Of a stretch of 14,083 nucleotides of DNA, positions 2,019 through 12,350 are shown in pieces. Positions within the stretch are counted from its first letter, which is position 1. Every line of letters starts with the position of its first letter. Made by a program: the position numbers and the translations under genes. The stretch is from Candidatus Omnitrophota bacterium (GTDB taxonomy: Bacteria > Omnitrophota > Gorgyraeia > B26-G9): positions 1 through 14,083 of the forward strand of contig DAOVNL010000002.1 of NCBI GenBank assembly GCA_030630245.1. Reading direction: 5' to 3'. A model generated the notes under the pieces. That model saw nothing but the letters and a program-made list of their open reading frames with translations. It was not told the DNA's origin and ran no database searches.

Positions 2019-2855
2019 TCAGGAATCAGGCAGCTCTATCTTTATCAGGGTTGCCTGCGCTGTGCCGATAGGAACCTTAAGCAGAATGATCAAAGGCACC
2101 CTGCGCATATCCGCGCTGAACCAGATACGCATGCTGCCTTCAGCATTCAACGAATCGTCAAACTGCCGCTCAGACTCCCGCGTGGGCTCCACCTGAAAAG
2201 CCCAGAAGCGCCCCGCAGGGGTTTTAATAAACCGCTCTCTACGCGCGTATATCCTGACCGGAAAGTTTTTCTTGCCCGCGTTTACCACAATATCCACCGG
2301 CTTGTTTAAGAAAACATTGTTCATCCTAAAATAATAGAACACGCCCAGCGGATCCAGGGTATCGGCGGTAATATCAAGCACATATTCGCCTTTCTTGTCC
2401 ACCGCATATACCTTTTGTTTTTTAAAGTCATAATCCATTTTCTTGAATACAAATTTCTTATTTATATGTGTCTGCGAATTGTACCTGAGCGGCTTGAACG
2501 TGTCCGCGTCAACAATTGATTCTATGCTTCCTTTTACATTATAGAAAAAGGAAAAAAAGCTGGTTGTCCAGGCCTTTAAAACCACCCGGCAGATTTTCCC
2601 ATTATTCTGCGTTTGGTCTTTTTTAACCTCTAAAGTAGCATCACCCACATGTATCCCCAGCCACGAAACCTTATAGGTCAGTTTTTCTCCTGGTACAAGC
2701 TTTCCCATCGGAGCAACTATTGTTCTTACGATCTCTGTTTTGGTTATAGAAGCGGGGCCGCCCCGTGTTCTCTTGCGTGCTTTAAAAGAACTGCAGCCAT
2801 TAATACTCAGCATAAAAACCAGAAATACGATCAAAATTAAACTTTTTCTGTTCAT
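2019..2855 (-). CDS. DUF3108 domain lipoprotein
   Basis: The 278-residue protein starts with a lipoprotein signal: MNRK, a hydrophobic core, then INGC with the lipidation cysteine at 21, followed by a basic stretch (KARKRTRGG). From about residue 55 it matches the DUF3108 pattern as I recall it, beginning PGEKLTYKVSWLGIHVGDA and rich in beta strands. Such proteins are envelope proteins of undefined function, and the predicted fold is a beta-barrel-like sheet facing the periplasm. Its place between heptosyltransferase and hldA suggests an envelope or LPS-linked role, but this is inference from context. ATG at 2855 follows AAAGGA. It is 14 bases after the heptosyltransferase stop and in the same transcript. 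Confidence 0.85.
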   Translation of the reverse strand: MNRKSLILIVFLVFMLSINGCSSFKARKRTRGGPASITKTEIVRTIVAPMGKLVPGEKLTYKVSWLGIHVGDATLEVKKDQTQNNGKICRVVLKAWTTSFFSFFYNVKGSIESIVDADTFKPLRYNSQTHINKKFVFKKMDYDFKKQKVYAVDKKGEYVLDITADTLDPLGVFYYFRMNNVFLNKPVDIVVNAGKKNFPVRIYARRERFIKTPAGRFWAFQVEPTRESERQFDDSLNAEGSMRIWFSADMRRVPLIILLKVPIGTAQATLIKIELPDS

Positions 2856-2869
2856 AGAATCCTTTCCCC

Positions 2870-3877
2870 TTAAAGCATCCTCAACACCTGCTCATACACC
2901 TCTTCAGGCGTGATCCTGTGCATGCAGCGGTTATCCGTGCATTCCTGCACATAGCACGGTATTTCACAGCCAACGTCTTTTTGTAAAATCACTGTTTTGC
3001 CCACTCCGACAGGGCCGGTCAGATTCGATGACGTGGGACCGAAAATCGCCACTGTATTTGCACCCACCGCGACAGATATATGCATGGGCCCTGAATCTGC
3101 GCTTATTACACAACATGAAGCTTTCATTATTGCCGCCAGCTGATGCAGTGTGGTTGAACCGGTAATTATTACCGGTTTTGTTTTCATCATGGATTCGATC
3201 TTTGCGGCCAGATCACTGTCTTTTTTCGCTCCGGCAATGACCACTTTCAGCTTGTTTTTTTGAGCGAGCATATCACCCAACTTGGCAAAGTTCTCCGCAC
3301 TCCAGCGCTTCATTTTCCAGTTTCCGCCGGGATTGATAACCACATATTTTTCTTTTCGTCCGATACCGTTTTCTTTTAGGATCTGCTGCGCTTCCTGAAC
3401 ATCTGTTTCATTTATAAAAAATTCACAGTTGCGGTCCTGCGCTTTGATCCCGCAGCTTTTAAGAATATTCAGAAAATAATCGATCTTATGCATCAGCTTA
3501 TCCGGCGCGGGAATTGACCTGCTCAGCAGAAAAGACCGGTTCTTGGTATTATAACCTGTGCGGCTTGGAATGCCGGCCAGGAACCCGATCATTGCCCTGC
3601 GCAGTGACGGATGCAGCACATAAACCTCATCAAATCTTTTCTTCCGAAGGTATCTGATGAATTTTATCTTTGCCAAAAGCGTTTGGTGCTTGCCGTATTC
3701 ATCATAGACTATTATCTCATTGATGCGCGGATTGTTCTTTAAAACATCCTCACAGCGGGAAATAACCAGGCAGGCAATATGCGCTTTCGGATTTGCAACT
3801 CTTAGCGCCTTAAGCACCGGGGTGGAAAAAACAATATCTCCTAACCAGTTTACATTTATAACTAAAATTTTTTTCAT
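2870..3877 (-). CDS. waaF: GT9 lipopolysaccharide heptosyltransferase (WaaF-like)
   Basis: Family GT9 enzymes transfer heptose from ADP-heptose to the LPS inner core at the cytosolic face of the inner membrane. The 335 residues show the N-terminal WLGDIVFSTP (11-20; Asp14 corresponds to the catalytic Asp13 of E. coli WaaC), INPGGNWKMKRW (181-192) and the donor-site ADSGPMH (260-266) followed by AIFGPT. Near the C-terminus is a four-cysteine cluster C304-x3-C308-x4-C313-x4-C318. Its start overlaps the stop of the upstream deacetylase gene by four bases (ATGA), indicating translational coupling. Whether it adds heptose I, II or III cannot be told; the waaF symbol is a best guess. Confidence 0.9.
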   Translation of the reverse strand: MKKILVINVNWLGDIVFSTPVLKALRVANPKAHIACLVISRCEDVLKNNPRINEIIVYDEYGKHQTLLAKIKFIRYLRKKRFDEVYVLHPSLRRAMIGFLAGIPSRTGYNTKNRSFLLSRSIPAPDKLMHKIDYFLNILKSCGIKAQDRNCEFFINETDVQEAQQILKENGIGRKEKYVVINPGGNWKMKRWSAENFAKLGDMLAQKNKLKVVIAGAKKDSDLAAKIESMMKTKPVIITGSTTLHQLAAIMKASCCVISADSGPMHISVAVGANTVAIFGPTSSNLTGPVGVGKTVILQKDVGCEIPCYVQECTDNRCMHRITPEEVYEQVLRML

Positions 3878-4647
3878 TTTCTTTTTACGCGTCTGTCTTT
3901 AAAAAATGTATAATAGCCGGAAACCTGGACCCAGAAGATCAGCATATTATCCGAGCTTTGAGATATCCTGATCCGGCGTATTGCATAGATGTCGTTTAAG
4001 GCTGTCCTTGCGTCAGGATGCGTTGCCAGCGCCGCTTTATAGCCGGAAAGTTCTGCCAGCTCCTTTACAAAAGGAGTAAAATTACCGCAGGGATAACAAA
4101 GATAATCTATAACTGTATTAAGCTTCTTCTCAAGGACGCGCTTGGACTCTCTGAGTTCTCTAATCGTAGAATCTTTACTCAGCGTATCCAGCAGACAGTG
4201 GCTCAGGCCGTGGCTTGCGATCTCAATAAGCTCATCGCCGTTAAGCTCTCTTATCTGCTCCCAGCTCATCATATCCCCTCTGCCCACCCATTCAGGGACA
4301 ACCGATATCGTAGCCGGTATTCTGTATTTTTTTAAAATAGGATAGGCATCCGTATAGTTATCAAGAAATCCGTCATCAAAGGTAATAACCACAGCTCTCT
4401 TATCCGGTTTTTTATTTTCTCTTAAAAGCTGCACGTATTCATCCAGGGATAGGATATGATAATTTCCCTTTTTTAAAAAACTCATCTGGCGTTCAAAACT
4501 CTCGGGAGTTACTATCAAGCGCGAATTCTCCGCTCCTTGCGCAATGCTGTGGTACATCAGCACAGGGACCGAATAAACATTGTATAAAAATATGCCGGTA
4601 AAAATACTCACGGCAACGAAAACTATTAAAATGATTTTCTTTTTCAT
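3874..4647 (-). CDS. Membrane-anchored polysaccharide deacetylase (NodB/CE4 domain)
   Basis: This 257-residue protein has one N-terminal membrane segment (about 4-22) and then a NodB-homology domain. Motifs in order: MYHS (31-34), TFDDGF (89-94) with the catalytic/metal Asp91-Asp92, the metal-binding SHGLSH (His146, His150), and YPCGN (185-189) in place of the usual YPYG. CE4 enzymes remove N-acetyl groups from sugars. With the anchor, the catalytic domain should face the periplasm. Its place among glycosyltransferases suggests a core or surface-sugar substrate rather than peptidoglycan, but the substrate is not shown by the sequence. It overlaps by four bases (ATGA) with both neighbours, the GT4 gene upstream and waaF downstream. 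Confidence 0.9.
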   Translation of the reverse strand: MKKKIILIVFVAVSIFTGIFLYNVYSVPVLMYHSIAQGAENSRLIVTPESFERQMSFLKKGNYHILSLDEYVQLLRENKKPDKRAVVITFDDGFLDNYTDAYPILKKYRIPATISVVPEWVGRGDMMSWEQIRELNGDELIEIASHGLSHCLLDTLSKDSTIRELRESKRVLEKKLNTVIDYLCYPCGNFTPFVKELAELSGYKAALATHPDARTALNDIYAIRRIRISQSSDNMLIFWVQVSGYYTFFKDRRVKRK

Positions 4648-5811: not shown

Positions 5812-5823
5812 TTAACCGGTTAA
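5812..5823. repeat. 12-bp perfect palindrome over the stop of the GT4-GT9 gene
   Basis: TTAACCGGTTAA is its own reverse complement and includes the TAA stop codon (5820-5822) of the GT4-GT9 fusion gene. With no loop it would not form an RNA hairpin easily and has no T-tract, so a protein-binding site or chance is more likely than a terminator. Confidence 0.4.
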
Positions 5824-7925
5824 CGGCCAGCGTCAACTGATTTAGGCTGCATCAGATTCACTGCCGCCTCATATACCTCTTCAACCGTGATCTCTCTCAT
5901 GCAATTCTTCCTGAAACATTTCGGACTGTAGCAGGCAGAGCAAGACAACTCTTTTCTTATTAAAGCAAATTTTTCGGCAAATGGCAAATGCCGCACCGGG
6001 TCCGTAGGGCCGAACAGGGCCACAAAAGGCACTTTTAAGGCCGCGGCGATATGCATCGGCGCGCTGTCAACCGTTATCAAAACCGCGCAGTGTTTGATCA
6101 AAGCGCAAAGCTGCATTATCGATGTTTTACCCGCGGCATTTACCGGCCTGCACCGCGTACGCTTTATTATTTCCTCAATAGTACCTTTGGAATACTTTGT
6201 GCCCGTAAAAACAATACGCGCGTTGAATTTATTAGCAAGCATATCGGCAACTCTCGCGTAGGACTCAAGCATCCAGACCTTGCTCACCCAGCGGGGGCTT
6301 GCCAGCGCGTTTATACCGATAAGCATCTGCCCGCTGCTATACCAGTTCTGCTTCAGGAACTCCTGCATATTCCTCTCATCATAAACGCTTAACCATAACT
6401 CAAGCTTTTTATCAATATTGCTTTTGATCCCAAGGCCTTTAAGCACCTGAACCTGGTGTGTTACCGGATCGCAGTTTTTCATTGTATCTTTGATGCCGTA
6501 ATTGAGCAAAAATCCCAGTTTTTTATTGTTAAAGCCAAAACGCTGTTTTATTCCCGCAGCAAAAGCGATCATATGGCTCAGGTTATTATTTTGAAAATCA
6601 ACGCAGAAATTAAAATCCTTATGCCTGATCGCCATGATCTTTTTCATAACTTCAAAAAATCCCTTATGCCTTAAGATTATCAAGTCATCAATATACGGGC
6701 ATAACTGCAGGACATCCTTGAACTGGTTTTTTATCAGAACCTCAATCTGAGCATTGGGGAATTTCGCCCTTATAGCCCGCAAAGACGGTGTTATTAAAAT
6801 CGCATCCCCTAAAGCACCCAGTTTAATCACCAAGATCCTTTTCTTGTTTACCACATCCTTATAAACATCGATAGTCTTTCGCACAAGAACCTCTAAGGAG
6901 AAATTGTCTTCGACCTTTTTTCTTAAATTCCTGAGGCATTCATCTGCGAGTTTCTTGTCTTTTAAAACCCGCACCGCCGCGCCCGCGATCGCATGTGCAT
7001 CGGCCGGCTCAACTAAAAGCCCTTCCTTTTCATGCTCAATTATCTCAACAACACCGCCGACCTTTGTCGCCAATACCGGAACACCCACGGCTCCTGCCTC
7101 AATAACCACCCTTCCGAAGGCCTCTTGTGTTGTTGTTGAAAGCACCAGAAGATCAAGCTTTTTCAATATACCCGGGACATCCTTAACATTACCGAGAAAC
7201 TCCACCTTATCCGACAGGTTAAGGTCATCAACCATTCTTTTGAGTTCATCTAAATACTGATTTTTGTGCTCCGGGGCATCCCCGATAATTAAAGCCTTTG
7301 CCTGCGGGAATTCCCTCAATATACCAGGCAATGCCTTAATAAAATGCTTATGCCCTTTAAGTGGGGTTATCCTTCCGATAATCCCGATCACCTTTTGCTG
7401 TTTTGCAGGCATTGTTTCTTTTTTTTCAAACTTAAACTCATTCAAATCTACGCCGCGGTAGATCAGTCGTATTTTTTCCTTACTAACACCGAAATCATGC
7501 ATCATGTGCCTGCCGATTACCTGGCTAATGACTATTCCTCTTTTTCCCCAGCCCATAACGCGCGAAAAAAAGTGCCTGCTGTAATATCCGTGGCATGTTG
7601 TGACCAGCTCCGCTTTTGTGGATAGTGTCGCAAAAAAAGCGATCCAGGCAGGCACACGGCTTCTGGCATGCACGATATCTATGTTTTCCTTTTCAATAAT
7701 ATCCTTTAGTTTGACCACGCACCAGATAATTGAAAACAGGGATTTCCTGTGCACAGGCATTGTATAGTGCACAGACGAGGTAGCCTCAAGGTCTTTAACA
7801 AGTCTTCCCCCCGCAGAAACAACAACTGATTTATACCCGCTTTTGATCAAGGCATCAGCAAGATCTACGACTCCTCTTTCTACTCCCCCGCTTTCAAGCT
7901 CGGGAAGGATTTGTAAAATATTCAT
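5820..7925 (-). CDS. Fused glycosyltransferase: GT4 domain plus GT9 heptosyltransferase domain
   Basis: One 701-residue frame joins two complete enzymes. Residues 1-355 are a GT4 GT-B domain: SGGVERGV (12-19), TTCHGYY (109-115), IGRITPLKGHKHFI (183-196), and the E-x7-E motif with Glu268 and Glu276. Residues 361-695 are a GT9 domain: KLGALGDAILITP (368-380, catalytic Asp374), DSAPMHIAAAL (620-630), ALFGPTDP, and the four-cysteine cluster C662-x2-C665-x4-C670-x4-C675. The join lies near position 6845. Each half is close to full family length, so this is a true fusion by sequence rather than a remnant. It may add a heptose and another sugar in sequence. No good ribosome site precedes the ATG at 7925; a hairpin ends three bases before it. 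Confidence 0.9.
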   Translation of the reverse strand: MNILQILPELESGGVERGVVDLADALIKSGYKSVVVSAGGRLVKDLEATSSVHYTMPVHRKSLFSIIWCVVKLKDIIEKENIDIVHARSRVPAWIAFFATLSTKAELVTTCHGYYSRHFFSRVMGWGKRGIVISQVIGRHMMHDFGVSKEKIRLIYRGVDLNEFKFEKKETMPAKQQKVIGIIGRITPLKGHKHFIKALPGILREFPQAKALIIGDAPEHKNQYLDELKRMVDDLNLSDKVEFLGNVKDVPGILKKLDLLVLSTTTQEAFGRVVIEAGAVGVPVLATKVGGVVEIIEHEKEGLLVEPADAHAIAGAAVRVLKDKKLADECLRNLRKKVEDNFSLEVLVRKTIDVYKDVVNKKRILVIKLGALGDAILITPSLRAIRAKFPNAQIEVLIKNQFKDVLQLCPYIDDLIILRHKGFFEVMKKIMAIRHKDFNFCVDFQNNNLSHMIAFAAGIKQRFGFNNKKLGFLLNYGIKDTMKNCDPVTHQVQVLKGLGIKSNIDKKLELWLSVYDERNMQEFLKQNWYSSGQMLIGINALASPRWVSKVWMLESYARVADMLANKFNARIVFTGTKYSKGTIEEIIKRTRCRPVNAAGKTSIMQLCALIKHCAVLITVDSAPMHIAAALKVPFVALFGPTDPVRHLPFAEKFALIRKELSCSACYSPKCFRKNCMREITVEEVYEAAVNLMQPKSVDAGR

Positions 7926-8051: not shown

Positions 8052-9998
8052 CTATTTGATTATTTTTTCTTTTATTGCTTTATTCAGCTTTTTATTGTCA
8101 TCGAGTTTTTCAAGCGAAAACACCCCTTTTTCAAAATTCGTCAGCTCATCATAAAGCGCGTCGTGATGGGCAACGCGCATGATCTTCTCTTTTTCAAGAT
8201 GATCAATAAATTTTTCATGCTTTGTTTTTCTTCCAGCAGTTTTTTTCTTCAGCGGAAACACTATAGTATATGCATCGGAAGCCGCTGCCTCAGAAACCAT
8301 AGAGATACTCTCTCCGGTCACAACCATAACATCAGAAGCCCCTAAAATTCCGTTGACCGCAAAGTCATAATTCTTCTCTTTGGGAAAAACTTTAAAGATA
8401 CATCGCGGATAATTTTCCAGGCTCTTTTTTATATACTCATCGACATTATTCGGCGTGCGCCTGGATGTGGAAAGCAAAAGCCAGGCATTATGCTCATCCG
8501 CAAACTTTTTAAGCTCCTCAATGAATTTTTCCGCAAGCCCCGCATCAAGTGAATAATATTTGGAATCCCCGCCAATGAGAACCCCGATCTTAAGCCCTTT
8601 CTTCAGGTCTGCATGTTCACAGAGCTGCTCCCTTGCCTGAGCCAGGCTCTCGGATGAAACCATGTTTAAAGCCCCGTGCGTCATGACCACATTCTCTTGC
8701 TGTCTTGCCTCATCATGATAAGGTATGATGGAAAGATCAAAATCCTTTTCTGAAAAAGGCGACGGCTTCATCAGGCTTACTGTCTTTGCCAGGTTTTCCT
8801 CACCCAGTAGCAGCGCCGCAGCCCTGGTTGAGGAGCCGGTGCAGACGATAATATCAGCATGAGCGCCTTCAAGCCTATTAAAGGAATCCGCTGTTAATGC
8901 CATCTTAAGATACCTCATGGGGCAATGGAGAATTTTCCCGAACAGAAAGGTAATCAGGTTAAGCAGTTTTTCCGCAAAATGATTTTTAAAAACAACATCC
9001 AGCTCAACGGTCTTTACCGGGCTGGTTTGCTCAAGCACGGACTTTGCTACAGCCTGCGCCTGACGCAGGTGGCCGGTCATTCCGTCCTTAAGGATCATAA
9101 CCGTCCTTGCACTTGTATATTTCCAGCGCCTGTTTCCCCAAAGCCAAAGATACGGGTTTTTTCTGATATGCCGTTCGAGCAGATCGCGGTATTCCGCGGC
9201 ACCTCTTTTTACAAATTCCTCAATGTCCTCACCCTCACGTTTCTGTATGCGTTCCTCGATCACAAGCTCATGGTTAAAGCCGCTTCCATGGCGCAGGTTA
9301 AATGCAGGCAGGATCGGACTGCCTGTTTTTCCGGCTATTCTAAAAGTCCCGTCAGCAATAAAAACAGGCCTGCCGAAAAGATCCAGCAGCTGTCCCACCC
9401 TGCCGCTTTGGTCCCCGATCATACCGACAATGTTGTTTTGCTTAAGGTTCTTAACGATCTGCCTGAGCTGCACCCCCTTTTGAATGACTGTTGTACCTCT
9501 AATCTCACGGTTATAGTTAAGCAGGTCATTTAAAAAATAGGGCTTCTGCACTCTGGCTAAGGCATGCATCTTATATCCGTAATGAGCTGAAATGCTCGCG
9601 CAGAGTTCCCAGTTGCCGTAATGCGCGCTTAAGAAAACAATTCCTTTTCCCCCAGCAAGCGCTTCTTTGATCCTGTCTATATTCCTAACCTTTGTATATT
9701 TGCCGAAATACTTATCACTCATGCGAGGCATAAGAAAAAGTTCCGTAATATTCAGGCCGAAGTTCTTGAACATCTTTAGAACAACCTTTTTACGCTTTTC
9801 CCTGCTGAGTTTTTTTCCGAAAGCAGCCTTAAGGTTGGCATTGGCTATCCTTCTTCTTTTAACGTGGAGATAATACAGCGCCGCACCGACAAAAGCACCG
9901 AAATTAAGCACCGCGTTTATCGGCAGGATACGCGTTAGCAGCACCAGAATGCTAATCGGTAAATAAAGCAGATACGCGTTCCAGGAATCTTCTCTCAT
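8052..9998 (-). CDS. LpxL-like lipid A acyltransferase fused to an ELM1/DUF1022 domain
   Basis: A 648-residue protein with two domains (numbering from the ATG at 9998). Residues 1-295 match the LpxL/HtrB (LPLAT) family: a hydrophobic N-terminal segment (about 9-45), the catalytic H-x4-E in SAHYGNWEL (His126, Glu131), IGDQSGR (194-200), and the closing WLWGNRRWKY. These enzymes add a secondary acyl chain to lipid A on the cytosolic side of the inner membrane. Residues about 298-648 match the Mito_fiss_Elm1/DUF1022 family: KDGMTGHLRQA (304-314), LIGGDSKYY (474-482), STSRRTPN (510-517) and VVTGESISMVSEA (559-571), a GT-B-like fold of unclear bacterial function. A TTG start at 10007 is possible, but ATG 9998 has AGAGG nine bases upstream. 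It overlaps lpxK by 47 bases. Confidence 0.88.
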   Translation of the reverse strand: MREDSWNAYLLYLPISILVLLTRILPINAVLNFGAFVGAALYYLHVKRRRIANANLKAAFGKKLSREKRKKVVLKMFKNFGLNITELFLMPRMSDKYFGKYTKVRNIDRIKEALAGGKGIVFLSAHYGNWELCASISAHYGYKMHALARVQKPYFLNDLLNYNREIRGTTVIQKGVQLRQIVKNLKQNNIVGMIGDQSGRVGQLLDLFGRPVFIADGTFRIAGKTGSPILPAFNLRHGSGFNHELVIEERIQKREGEDIEEFVKRGAAEYRDLLERHIRKNPYLWLWGNRRWKYTSARTVMILKDGMTGHLRQAQAVAKSVLEQTSPVKTVELDVVFKNHFAEKLLNLITFLFGKILHCPMRYLKMALTADSFNRLEGAHADIIVCTGSSTRAAALLLGEENLAKTVSLMKPSPFSEKDFDLSIIPYHDEARQQENVVMTHGALNMVSSESLAQAREQLCEHADLKKGLKIGVLIGGDSKYYSLDAGLAEKFIEELKKFADEHNAWLLLSTSRRTPNNVDEYIKKSLENYPRCIFKVFPKEKNYDFAVNGILGASDVMVVTGESISMVSEAAASDAYTIVFPLKKKTAGRKTKHEKFIDHLEKEKIMRVAHHDALYDELTNFEKGVFSLEKLDDNKKLNKAIKEKIIK

Positions 9999-11013
9999 TT
10001 TTCTCAACCTCTAATTTGATTTTCAACACCAATATCTCAACCCCAGGCTGTTTATCTCTCATTACAGCCTTTATTCTCGGCTCATCCTTTGCCGTGGTTA
10101 TGATCAATCTTACCTTTAATTCAAGGCTCCTGGCAATAACAGATTTAAGCTCAACATCTGTAAAAGCATGGTGGTCCTCAAAATAAAAATTTTCCACTAT
10201 CTGCGCGCCCAGACCTTTCACAGTTTTCTCAAATAACTTCGGCTTGGCAATAGCGCACAGCAGCGCGACTTTTTCATCCCTAACAAATGAAAGTTCTCTC
10301 TTCTGAGCCTTATTTATATTATATAAAAACTCAGGAACATGACTGCTCTTGAATATCTCAGCCTTTTTATTATATGTGCGCAATTTATTTATTATCTCTT
10401 CAACTTTTCCGGGCGCCTGATCTGTGTGCGTGAGCACAAAAACCTGAGCATTGCCAAGATAGCAAAAAGGCACGCGCAGCAATCCCCGGGGCAAAACATA
10501 CCCGAACCCGAAGGGATTCAGGCAATCAATACAGACAATATCAAGGTCCTTTCCTGTTTTTAGATTCCCAAAGGCATCATCAAGCACAGCAACTTCGCAG
10601 CCCATTTCATGCTGTGCCAATTTAAGCGCGGCAAGCCTGTCCTTATTGATTATAACCTGTGCCTCGGGAAACCTGTTTTTAAGCATCTGCGGTTCATCCG
10701 CGATAACCCCCTTGCCTTGAATACCTTTATAGCCGCGGCTGATTATCGCAACACGCTTTTTCTCCTGCAGCAGATATTCGACAATTCTCTCAACAAGAGG
10801 CGTTTTGCCTGTGCCTCCCACAGTTATATTTCCGACACTGATAACTTTTATATTATGTCTGCTTACAGGCATAATACGTAAGCGGTAAACAAGCAGTCTA
10901 AGAGTAAGGATACCGGAATAGATCAGCGATAAAAAGTATAAAAAAATCCCCAAGACCCGGCTTTGGGCATCCTTTTTTTTGCCCGCTATGATAAGCAGCA
11001 GATATTTCTTCAT
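9952..11013 (-). CDS. lpxK: Tetraacyldisaccharide 4'-kinase LpxK
   Basis: LpxK phosphorylates the 4' position of the lipid A disaccharide at the inner membrane. Seen in 353 residues: an N-terminal membrane-associated helix (about 18-45), SVGNITVGGTGKTP with the P-loop (59-72), SRGYKG (92-97), DEP (106-108), Asp145-Asp146, the FEDHHAF region (278-284) and TTAKDEPR (306-313). The loop normally read as DDGFQH is DDAFGN here, a real departure in the catalytic area. The frame is open upstream to an ATG at 11046. The ATG at 11013 is chosen because it overlaps the rarA stop as ATGA, has AAAGGA before it and gives a normal N-terminus. Its 3' end overlaps the LpxL-like gene. Confidence 0.92.
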   Translation of the reverse strand: MKKYLLLIIAGKKKDAQSRVLGIFLYFLSLIYSGILTLRLLVYRLRIMPVSRHNIKVISVGNITVGGTGKTPLVERIVEYLLQEKKRVAIISRGYKGIQGKGVIADEPQMLKNRFPEAQVIINKDRLAALKLAQHEMGCEVAVLDDAFGNLKTGKDLDIVCIDCLNPFGFGYVLPRGLLRVPFCYLGNAQVFVLTHTDQAPGKVEEIINKLRTYNKKAEIFKSSHVPEFLYNINKAQKRELSFVRDEKVALLCAIAKPKLFEKTVKGLGAQIVENFYFEDHHAFTDVELKSVIARSLELKVRLIITTAKDEPRIKAVMRDKQPGVEILVLKIKLEVEKNERRFLERVSALFTD

Positions 11014-12350
11014 TCCTTTTCTGTCTCTCTCAGATATTCCAGCCATGCTTTTATCTTTTTCTCATAGCCCATTTCAGCCGGTTGATAATACTTCTTTTTT
11101 TTACTCATATACTCCTGTTTTGCATAATGATTCTTAAAATCATGCGCATATTTATAACCCGCGCCGCGATCCAGTTTCTTTGCGCTTTTATATGAGGCGT
11201 CCTTCAAATGATCGGGAACCTCCCGGCTTACTTCATTTGCAACATCATGCGCTGCTTTTTCAATGCCTAAATACGAGGCATTGCTTTTGGGAGCACAGGC
11301 CACATAAACAGCCGCCTGGGCCAGAGGGATCCGCGCCTCAGGCATGCCCAGCACTTCCACCGCATCATATGCGGCATTGGCCAGAACAAACGCATGCGGA
11401 TCGGCATTACCCACATCCTCTGATGCACAGATCAGAATTCTTCTGGCAATAAAACGCGGGTCCTCCCCCGCATAGATCATTTTTGCCAGCCAGTAAAGCG
11501 CCGCGTCAGGATTAGTACCCCGCATACTTTTGATAAAGGCGGAGATCACGTCATAATGATCGTCTTCGTCTGTGTCGTAGCGGATAATTCTTTTCTGTAT
11601 GGATTCCTCAGCCACCTGCTTTGTAAAATGAATCTTTTTGTCAATGTCTGGCTCTATTGTTAAAATACCCACCTCAAGAGCATTCAAGGCACGCCTTGCA
11701 TCGCCGTTACTTATGCGACAGATGTGTTCCAGGGCGTCTTTTTCAACCTCAACGCACAGATCGCCTAAACCTCTTTCTTTATCCCTTAAAGCAGCTTTTA
11801 ATATGGATAAGATGTTCTCCTGTGTATGCGGTTTAAATTCAAAAACATGCGAACGCGAGATCAGAGCAGGAACAACATAGAAAAAAGGATTATGCGTTGT
11901 CGCCCCTATCAGGATAATGTTGCCCAGCTCTACATCGTCCAAAAACACATCCTGCTGAGCTTTGTTGAAACGGTGAATTTCATCAACGAAAAGGATCGTA
12001 CGCATATCACGGTTCTTTTTTAATTTCCTTGCCGCAAGAAGCTTCTCTTTGACTTCTTTTACACCTACCGCAGCCGCATGCATAGAATCAAATTCAGAAT
12101 TTGTTAATTTGCTAATAATATTCCCCAACACGCTTTTTCCCGTGCCGGAAGGGCCGTAAAGGATAAGCGAGCTGATCCTGTCCGAATTGATCAATCGCCT
12201 CAGGAGCTTGCCCTGACCAAGAATATGATCCTGTCCGACAAACTCCTCAAGATTTCGAGGTCTCATTTTTAATGCAAGCGGAGCATTTTTTGAGATCTTT
12301 GCCTCTTTTCCTGTTTTTCCTACCTCAAAAAGATCACTTTTAGCACCCAT
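11010..12350 (-). CDS. rarA: Replication-associated recombination protein A (RarA/MgsA), AAA+ ATPase
   Basis: RarA is a homotetrameric AAA+ clamp-loader-like ATPase that acts at stalled replication forks and interacts with SSB. The 446 residues have full family length. Seen: PLALKMRPRNLEEFVGQ (24-40), Walker A GPSGTGKS (66-73; usually GPPGTGKT), Walker B ILFVDEIHRFNKAQQD (119-134), sensor 1 GATTHNP (149-155; usually GATTENP), GDARRALNALE, and the C-terminal YAGEDPRFIARRILICASEDVG tetramerisation region. ATG at 12350 has only a weak GGTGAG ribosome site. It stands at the head of the LPS block and is coupled to lpxK by ATGA, although it has no evident LPS role. The non-coding stretch upstream resembles 6S RNA. 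Confidence 0.96.
   Translation of the reverse strand: MGAKSDLFEVGKTGKEAKISKNAPLALKMRPRNLEEFVGQDHILGQGKLLRRLINSDRISSLILYGPSGTGKSVLGNIISKLTNSEFDSMHAAAVGVKEVKEKLLAARKLKKNRDMRTILFVDEIHRFNKAQQDVFLDDVELGNIILIGATTHNPFFYVVPALISRSHVFEFKPHTQENILSILKAALRDKERGLGDLCVEVEKDALEHICRISNGDARRALNALEVGILTIEPDIDKKIHFTKQVAEESIQKRIIRYDTDEDDHYDVISAFIKSMRGTNPDAALYWLAKMIYAGEDPRFIARRILICASEDVGNADPHAFVLANAAYDAVEVLGMPEARIPLAQAAVYVACAPKSNASYLGIEKAAHDVANEVSREVPDHLKDASYKSAKKLDRGAGYKYAHDFKNHYAKQEYMSKKKKYYQPAEMGYEKKIKAWLEYLRETEKE

Follow-up and report, generated by a model that had tools for sequence, protein, structure and literature searches.

The bacterial ELM1-type proteins (Pfam family PF06258) had no assigned activity, within the literature searched, before an assay of late 2025, in which A1S_2903 of Acinetobacter baumannii, named KdoT, acted in vitro as a transferase of CMP-Kdo (cytidine monophosphate-activated 3-deoxy-D-manno-oct-2-ulosonic acid) (PMC12856342). 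There KdoT is the PF06258 Kdo-III transferase of Acinetobacter and has GnaT as its partner; its Arg180 is critical for activity, alanine mutants at D8, H13, H109 and D110 stayed functional, and the homolog from A. nosocomialis complements a kdoT mutant (PMC12856342). The genetics of A1S_2903 have been reported (PMC10936431), and GtrOC1, listed as a PF06258 protein (PMC10327509), is probably the same protein, judging from locus and names. Here we analyze a stretch of 14,083 nt from a Candidatus Omnitrophota bacterium (contig DAOVNL010000002.1, below called the window), where an ELM1 domain is fused to an LpxL-type acyltransferase. An original prediction, made from the window alone, regarded bacterial ELM1 homologues as poorly understood, which the KdoT work has made out of date, and was aware of no characterization of the architecture; we found no description of it in the literature searched, the coverage of which was partial, without preprints and most subscription papers. 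The fusion has the following features (648-aa numbering, aa being amino acids).

8052..9998, minus strand: LpxL-type acyltransferase fused to an ELM1/KdoT-like glycosyltransferase, 648 aa
9120..9968, minus strand: LPLAT domain (PF03279), residues 11-293
9606..9623, minus strand: catalytic H126-x4-E131, both residues invariant in 83 of 83 fusions
8067..9074, minus strand: ELM1 domain (PF06258), modelled as a GT-B fold
9069..9086, minus strand: D305...H310, aligned with D8 and H13 of KdoT
8712..8717, minus strand: H428-D429, aligned with H109-D110 of KdoT
8454..8465, minus strand: S512-R513-R514-T515 (SRRT), aligned with S178-T181 of KdoT

The LPLAT::ELM1 fusion in one frame is real. The open reading frame (ORF) 8052-10007 on the minus strand starts either at ATG 9998 (648 aa) or at TTG 10007 (651 aa). 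Counted on the 651-aa form, the PF03279 match spans residues 14-296 (161 bits against a cut-off of 22.3, E 4.1e-47) and is followed by a nearly full-length PF06258 match at residues 312-647 (profile positions 2-302 of 304, E 5.7e-51, 174 bits, curated cut-off 27), with no stop between them, so that the predicted acyltransferase and full ELM1 domain are both present, the latter in the C-terminal part, where it had been placed. Neither a stop nor a frameshift lies near 9107, between the two domains. Five relatives (P0002-P0006, 83-91% identical) share the same full-length architecture, which excludes an assembly error or frameshift; such an artefact was considered as the source of the fusion and rejected, as the frame is open and both the relatives and genomes across the phylum agree. 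The window belongs to a metagenome-assembled genome (MAG) that is 69.5% complete, and the fusion is its sole PF06258 match; relatives of the protein at 83-84% identity carry the names Candidatus Omnitrophota or Omnitrophica.

The architecture is general in Omnitrophota and not confined to one genome. PF06258 was detected in 265 of the 285 Omnitrophota genomes and LPLAT in 284 of them, mostly in 2-5 copies. Among the 150 PF06258 matches listed (of 276), 138 lie in open frames of at least 560 aa, and a frame test of the 30 best-scoring PF06258 loci found LPLAT followed by ELM1 in 26, the other four being short stand-alone copies. With the whole protein as query, phmmer yielded 64 matches including the window's own, 61 of them with both Pfam domains in the precomputed annotation, and wherever one of these 61 carries an organism name, it reads Omnitrophota, Omnitrophica or 'PVC group'; a profile built from 83 fusions yielded 47 matches, 45 with both domains (about 8,000 candidates were scored in each search). 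In a tree of LPLAT domains, one branch, with 97% support in the Shimodaira-Hasegawa-like approximate likelihood-ratio test (SH-aLRT), separates the 21 fused rows from 28 stand-alone Omnitrophota rows, the latter taken entirely from genomes in which PF06258 was not matched. This split is compatible with a single fusion event, which is the simplest reading.

In samples of other phyla PF06258 is less frequent, occurring in 69 of 288 Verrucomicrobiota and 53 of 299 Pseudomonadota genomes. No LPLAT joined to ELM1 was seen in the six Verrucomicrobiota frames of at least 490 aa and four shorter ones (BLASTP, 1e-6), nor in five of the six Pseudomonadota frames of at least 490 aa, including both longer than 560 aa (G667, 496 aa, was left out). 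As only long frames and a few shorter ones were covered, divergent fusions may still occur in both phyla. In two loci of the Verrucomicrobiota sample (L208 and L214), unfused LPLAT and ELM1 frames adjoin, in opposite orders.

The ELM1 half resembles KdoT in the residues that have been studied there. An A. nosocomialis protein has exactly D8, H13, H109, D110 and S178-T181 and was taken as a KdoT ortholog because all these residues stand at identical positions; it aligns with the window domain at 25.7% identity over 311 positions (E 5.6e-19). In this alignment, D8, H13, H109 and D110 correspond to D305, H310, H428 and D429, and S178, R179, R180 and T181 correspond to S512, R513, R514 and T515, R514 being the counterpart of the critical R180. 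All of these except T515 are invariant in the 83 aligned fusions, R514 among them; the ELM1 half of the window retains the SRRT element, and the predicted conservation of ELM1 motifs was borne out, the VTGESISMVSEA stretch also being found in the fusion protein. For comparison, the best 80 of at least 314 confirmed stand-alone ELM1 loci were used, 78 of them in the residue comparison (two were dropped by a start-position filter); in this KdoT-like set R180 is conserved in 78 of 78 and R179 in 71 of 78, in agreement with the published KdoT mutants (PMC12856342). Residues 292-648 are modelled as a GT-B fold, as in KdoT, which upholds the earlier GT-B guess as a prediction.

These data bear on the possibility that the ELM1 half is non-catalytic and gates the acyltransferase as a scaffold or sensor to which an LPS (lipopolysaccharide) intermediate or a nucleotide sugar binds. 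Gating does exist around the KdoT step, because in A. baumannii cells KdoT works only with GnaT present and active, and candidate-base mutants of KdoT stay active (PMC12856342). However, none of the seven residues D305, H310, H428, D429, S512, R513 and R514 varies among the 83 fusions, and L008 (see below), which belongs to the fusion clade but stands alone, retains both SRRT and the HD pair, which makes a purely regulatory domain improbable.

The genomic context points to the same step of LPS synthesis. It was surveyed in 21 loci, namely the window and 20 others picked for long contigs and different families. The neighbours of the fusion in the window are as follows.

9952..11046, minus strand: lpxK (PF02606, E 2.1e-67), directly upstream of the fusion
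6846..7925, minus strand: GT4 (glycosyltransferase family 4) half of the next protein, whose closest A. nosocomialis protein is GnaT/LpsB
5820..6845, minus strand: GT9 (heptosyltransferase-like) half of the same downstream protein

The lpxK gene overlaps the fusion ORF by 56 bases (TTG 10007 start) or 47 bases (ATG 9998 start) and lies immediately upstream of it in 20 of 21 loci. By strict adjacency waaA immediately precedes lpxK in 16 of 21 loci, and a waaA-cluster gene is present in 19, while the GT4::GT9 protein follows the fusion immediately in all 21; the gaps flanking the fusion gene range from a 62-base overlap to 126 bases. Most often the genes run in the order dprA, topA, xerC-like, waaA, lpxK, LPLAT::ELM1, GT4::GT9, GT4, deacetylase, GT9; the symbols dprA, topA and xerC are read from Pfam matches in a single locus (L046), and the window protein gave the deacetylase cluster its name. 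In the window itself, a gene for an MgsA-type ATPase takes the place of waaA upstream of lpxK. The conserved waaA-lpxK-fusion-GT4::GT9 run sustains, as a prediction, the LPS role that had been proposed.

Moreover, the downstream GT4 half has as its top A. nosocomialis match a 366-aa protein (209 bits, the runner-up having 88); the EX7E motif of this protein consists of E283 and E291, the same residues as in the published GnaT (PMC12856342). The identity with GnaT/LpsB is 36% and EX7E is kept, but the Omnitrophota GT4 is fused to a GT9 heptosyltransferase-like domain. Among the 78 stand-alone ELM1 loci with enough room, a GnaT-like gene (at least 130 bits) lies directly downstream in 39 and anywhere in the locus in 51. 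The fusion shares with KdoT the PF06258 family, the GT-B fold, the D/H/HD/SRRT residues, a functional link to a GnaT-like GT4 and an additionally encoded WaaA, whereas KdoT is a stand-alone protein, with a length of 292-318 aa across the 10 Acinetobacter loci measured, that is encoded in the outer-core locus and belongs to another lineage, and the fusion is instead tied to an acyltransferase and lpxK. The GT4::GT9 protein (5820-7925, minus strand) is itself a second widespread fusion of core-LPS enzymes.

The family owes its name to a plant protein, and a role of the ELM1 half in membrane fission or cell division is hardly credible: besides the name, it can draw on the chains formed by A. baumannii A1S_2903 (kdoT) mutants (PMC10936431), but the authors of that work proposed that the division defect reflects disturbed LOS (lipooligosaccharide) and cell wall synthesis, and the predicted GT-B fold, the LPS operon and the in vitro activity of KdoT (PMC12856342) all speak for a glycosyltransferase.

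The N-terminal half has PF03279 together with the H-x4-D/E motif and is thus LpxL-type, the H-x4-E described earlier as intact being found without exception. It shares the fold, this motif and the lipid A gene neighbourhood with LpxL/LpxM/PatA-type acyltransferases (PF03279), but the fusion has a C-terminal glycosyltransferase, and its scores lie below the NCBIfam cut-offs for LpxL/HtrB (140.3 vs 248 for NF006270, 102.1 vs 297.8 for TIGR02207). Links between LpxL and ELM1 or its partner also occur in unfused form. In Marinobacter litoralis (L164) the ORF of an LpxL-family acyltransferase (322 bits, cut-off 297.8) extends 4 bases into the ELM1 ORF, with a GnaT-like GT4 next and waaA adjoining; in A. 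nosocomialis the ORF adjoining the GnaT gene is an LpxL-family acyltransferase (299.2 bits, same cut-off); and ELM1 is preceded, at a distance of about 0.5 kb, by an LPLAT match in four Verrucomicrobiota loci (L114, L137, L145, L172). Since just 11 of 80 stand-alone ELM1 loci have an LPLAT match, this link is occasional outside Omnitrophota.

A substrate other than lipid A for the LPLAT half, with the pair producing a different glycolipid, is very improbable. The sub-threshold NCBIfam scores would fit such a role, as would the best structural matches of this half, which are to PatA, a phosphatidylinositol mannoside acyltransferase, and the unfused LPLAT genes kept by two near-complete genomes without WaaA, LpxK or over-cut-off KdsA (see below). 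Yet in the tree described above the fused LPLAT forms a lineage distinct from the stand-alone LPLATs compared, its gene sits with waaA and lpxK, and the LpxL genes that adjoin ELM1 or GnaT in Marinobacter and Acinetobacter score over the cut-off.

WaaA (KdtA) itself has the GT-B fold and thus resembles the ELM1 half. Its donor is Kdo (PMC12856342), which is presumed for the ELM1 half as well. The two belong to different Pfam families, and no PF04413 (WaaA, GT30) match was found in the fusion protein at E 0.01. The 50 structure matches listed for the model do not include WaaA. The ELM1 half was also considered as a replacement of WaaA, and this was rejected because WaaA is encoded in 266 of 285 Omnitrophota genomes, in relatives by a gene separate from the fusion. 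One genome without a WaaA match (G000) has a relative of the same genus with one (G152). In 62 selected genomes, about one per family, KdsB scores over the cut-off in 60 and KdsA in 58.

PF06258 was not matched in 20 of the 285 genomes. In seven of these lpxK was found, with the contig ending inside it or at most about 680 bases past it, so the fusion cannot be judged there; the remaining 13 have no lpxK match. ELM1 and WaaA are both missing in nine genomes vs 1.3 expected (20x19/285), which assembly gaps could explain, as the two genes are near neighbours. Two genomes, G079 (2 contigs, 96% complete) and G114 (93%), have no match to WaaA, LpxK or ELM1 and no KdsA match over the cut-off, and they still carry LPLAT genes, unfused; these look like true losses, in which Kdo-LPS has probably disappeared.

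The anatomy of the fusion gives good support to a bifunctional inner-core enzyme that combines acyltransferase and glycosyltransferase. With moderate confidence, we take it for an early-LPS enzyme in which an LpxL-type acyltransferase is combined with a KdoT-like GT-B enzyme acting on the WaaA product, most likely with CMP-Kdo, our best single guess for the donor. What the analysis shows is the fusion with its spread and operon, the folds as predicted, the conserved motifs and a neighbour resembling GnaT; the two activities, Kdo as the donor, the acceptor and an advantage of being fused are inferred. The protein is probably bound to the inner membrane, where the N-terminal secondary acyltransferase (H-x4-E) would add an acyl chain to Kdo-lipid A precursors, and the C-terminal PF06258 GT-B domain would transfer one inner-core sugar from a nucleotide sugar (most likely CMP-Kdo) onto the WaaA product, the donor being held by R514 of SRRT. 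In the following step the GnaT-like GT4 fused to GT9, encoded next in the operon, may extend this sugar. The fusion would place on one chain two enzymes with a common acceptor, Kdo-lipid IVA, made by WaaA after LpxK.

Several observations weigh against this assignment. In a quick, midpoint-rooted tree of 66 ELM1 sequences (four of 25 picked fusions, in which the domain-cutting motif was not found, were left out), a separate branch (98% SH-aLRT) unites the fused domains with one stand-alone Omnitrophota copy (L008), and lies outside both the KdoT clade and the group that we call here alpha-type, so that orthology with KdoT does not follow. Diagnostic columns are split almost evenly (fusion=KdoT 11, fusion=alpha-type 12, KdoT=alpha-type 11) and form a mosaic, the fused domain being nearer KdoT in its N-terminal half (8 columns against 1) and nearer alpha-type in its C-terminal half (3 against 11). 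The H equivalent to H310 is present in 83 of 83 fusions, 78 of 78 KdoT-like proteins and 2 of 19 alpha-type ones, but it is a weak mark alone, since KdoT with H13A is still functional (PMC12856342), and it was given little weight as a KdoT-only signature because one of the search patterns that supplied part of the KdoT-like set included, and hence selected for, that H. A GnaT-like gene was not seen within the fetched stretch in 27 of the 78 stand-alone loci, including all 10 of Acinetobacter, that is, not beside KdoT in Acinetobacter itself. Finally, the LPLAT half is below every NCBIfam cut-off matched, so that its family match does not fix the acyl chain or its position.

GT-B enzymes usually bind the donor through the C-terminal half. 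The same is described for GnaT (PMC12856342), and the donor of the fusion may therefore differ from that of Acinetobacter KdoT, its C-terminal half being nearer alpha-type. Nor need the PF06258 family be uniform, because four more members, GtrOC14, 19a, 19b and 22, occur in A. baumannii outer-core loci (PMC10327509). The architecture and the step could be the same with another donor, e.g. a uronic acid, heptose or hexosamine nucleotide, for the first non-WaaA inner-core sugar. The separate lineage of the fused domain, the alpha-type residues in its presumed donor half and the five PF06258 proteins among A. baumannii core loci (PMC10327509) would all suit such a donor; we nevertheless consider it unlikely, though deserving serious attention, since both arginines of SRRT are the same in all 83 fusions, the fusion is followed by a GnaT-like partner, as are KdoT relatives elsewhere, and Kdo synthesis genes are nearly universal in the 62 genomes examined. 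At best, the fused ELM1 domain works like KdoT, and we do not class it as KdoT.

The covalent link of ELM1 to a lipid A acyltransferase throughout a phylum, with a GnaT-like gene next to it, provides independent genomic support for an inner-LPS-core role of the family, and predicts that the C-terminal half adds Kdo or another sugar to Kdo2-lipid IVA; this would be a natural case of acylation and glycosylation of one intermediate being joined. The database names 'mitochondrial fission protein' and 'lauroyltransferase' given to these proteins are corrected by the finding. More tentatively, and with doubts at least as strong as the arguments for it, we suggest that Omnitrophota couple late lipid A acylation to WaaA-independent Kdo addition within one bifunctional enzyme that acts on Kdo2-lipid IVA, followed by the fused GnaT-heptosyltransferase. 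If so, the KdoT-GnaT step would be an old inner-core module, common to Omnitrophota, Verrucomicrobiota and Gammaproteobacteria and sometimes linked to LpxL, which in one phylum is wired straight to the acyltransferase as an acylation checkpoint.

Some individual copies deviate from the common pattern. L008 (1375-2448, minus strand), the stand-alone ELM1 inside the fusion clade, probably is a copy that lost its LPLAT; its genome (G020) also has a 655-aa PF06258 frame, and the ORF adjacent to L008 reads like a putative ABC transporter. Three PF06258 copies in three Omnitrophota genomes (L002, L003, L004) have very high scores with the family model, and the two of them placed in the tree group with alpha-type ELM1, which suggests recent transfer or contamination. 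In a MAG labelled Nealsonbacteria (the label is doubtful), a single open frame (L105, 336-1394) comprises a GnaT-like GT4 N-terminal stretch and ELM1, which could be a different fusion or a chimera, and a longer GnaT-like match is located further on (3370-4467). In the window, the genes for a PfkB-type heptose-7-phosphate kinase (961-1947) and a GT9 protein (2870-3877) flank that for a DUF3108 protein (2019-2855, minus strand).
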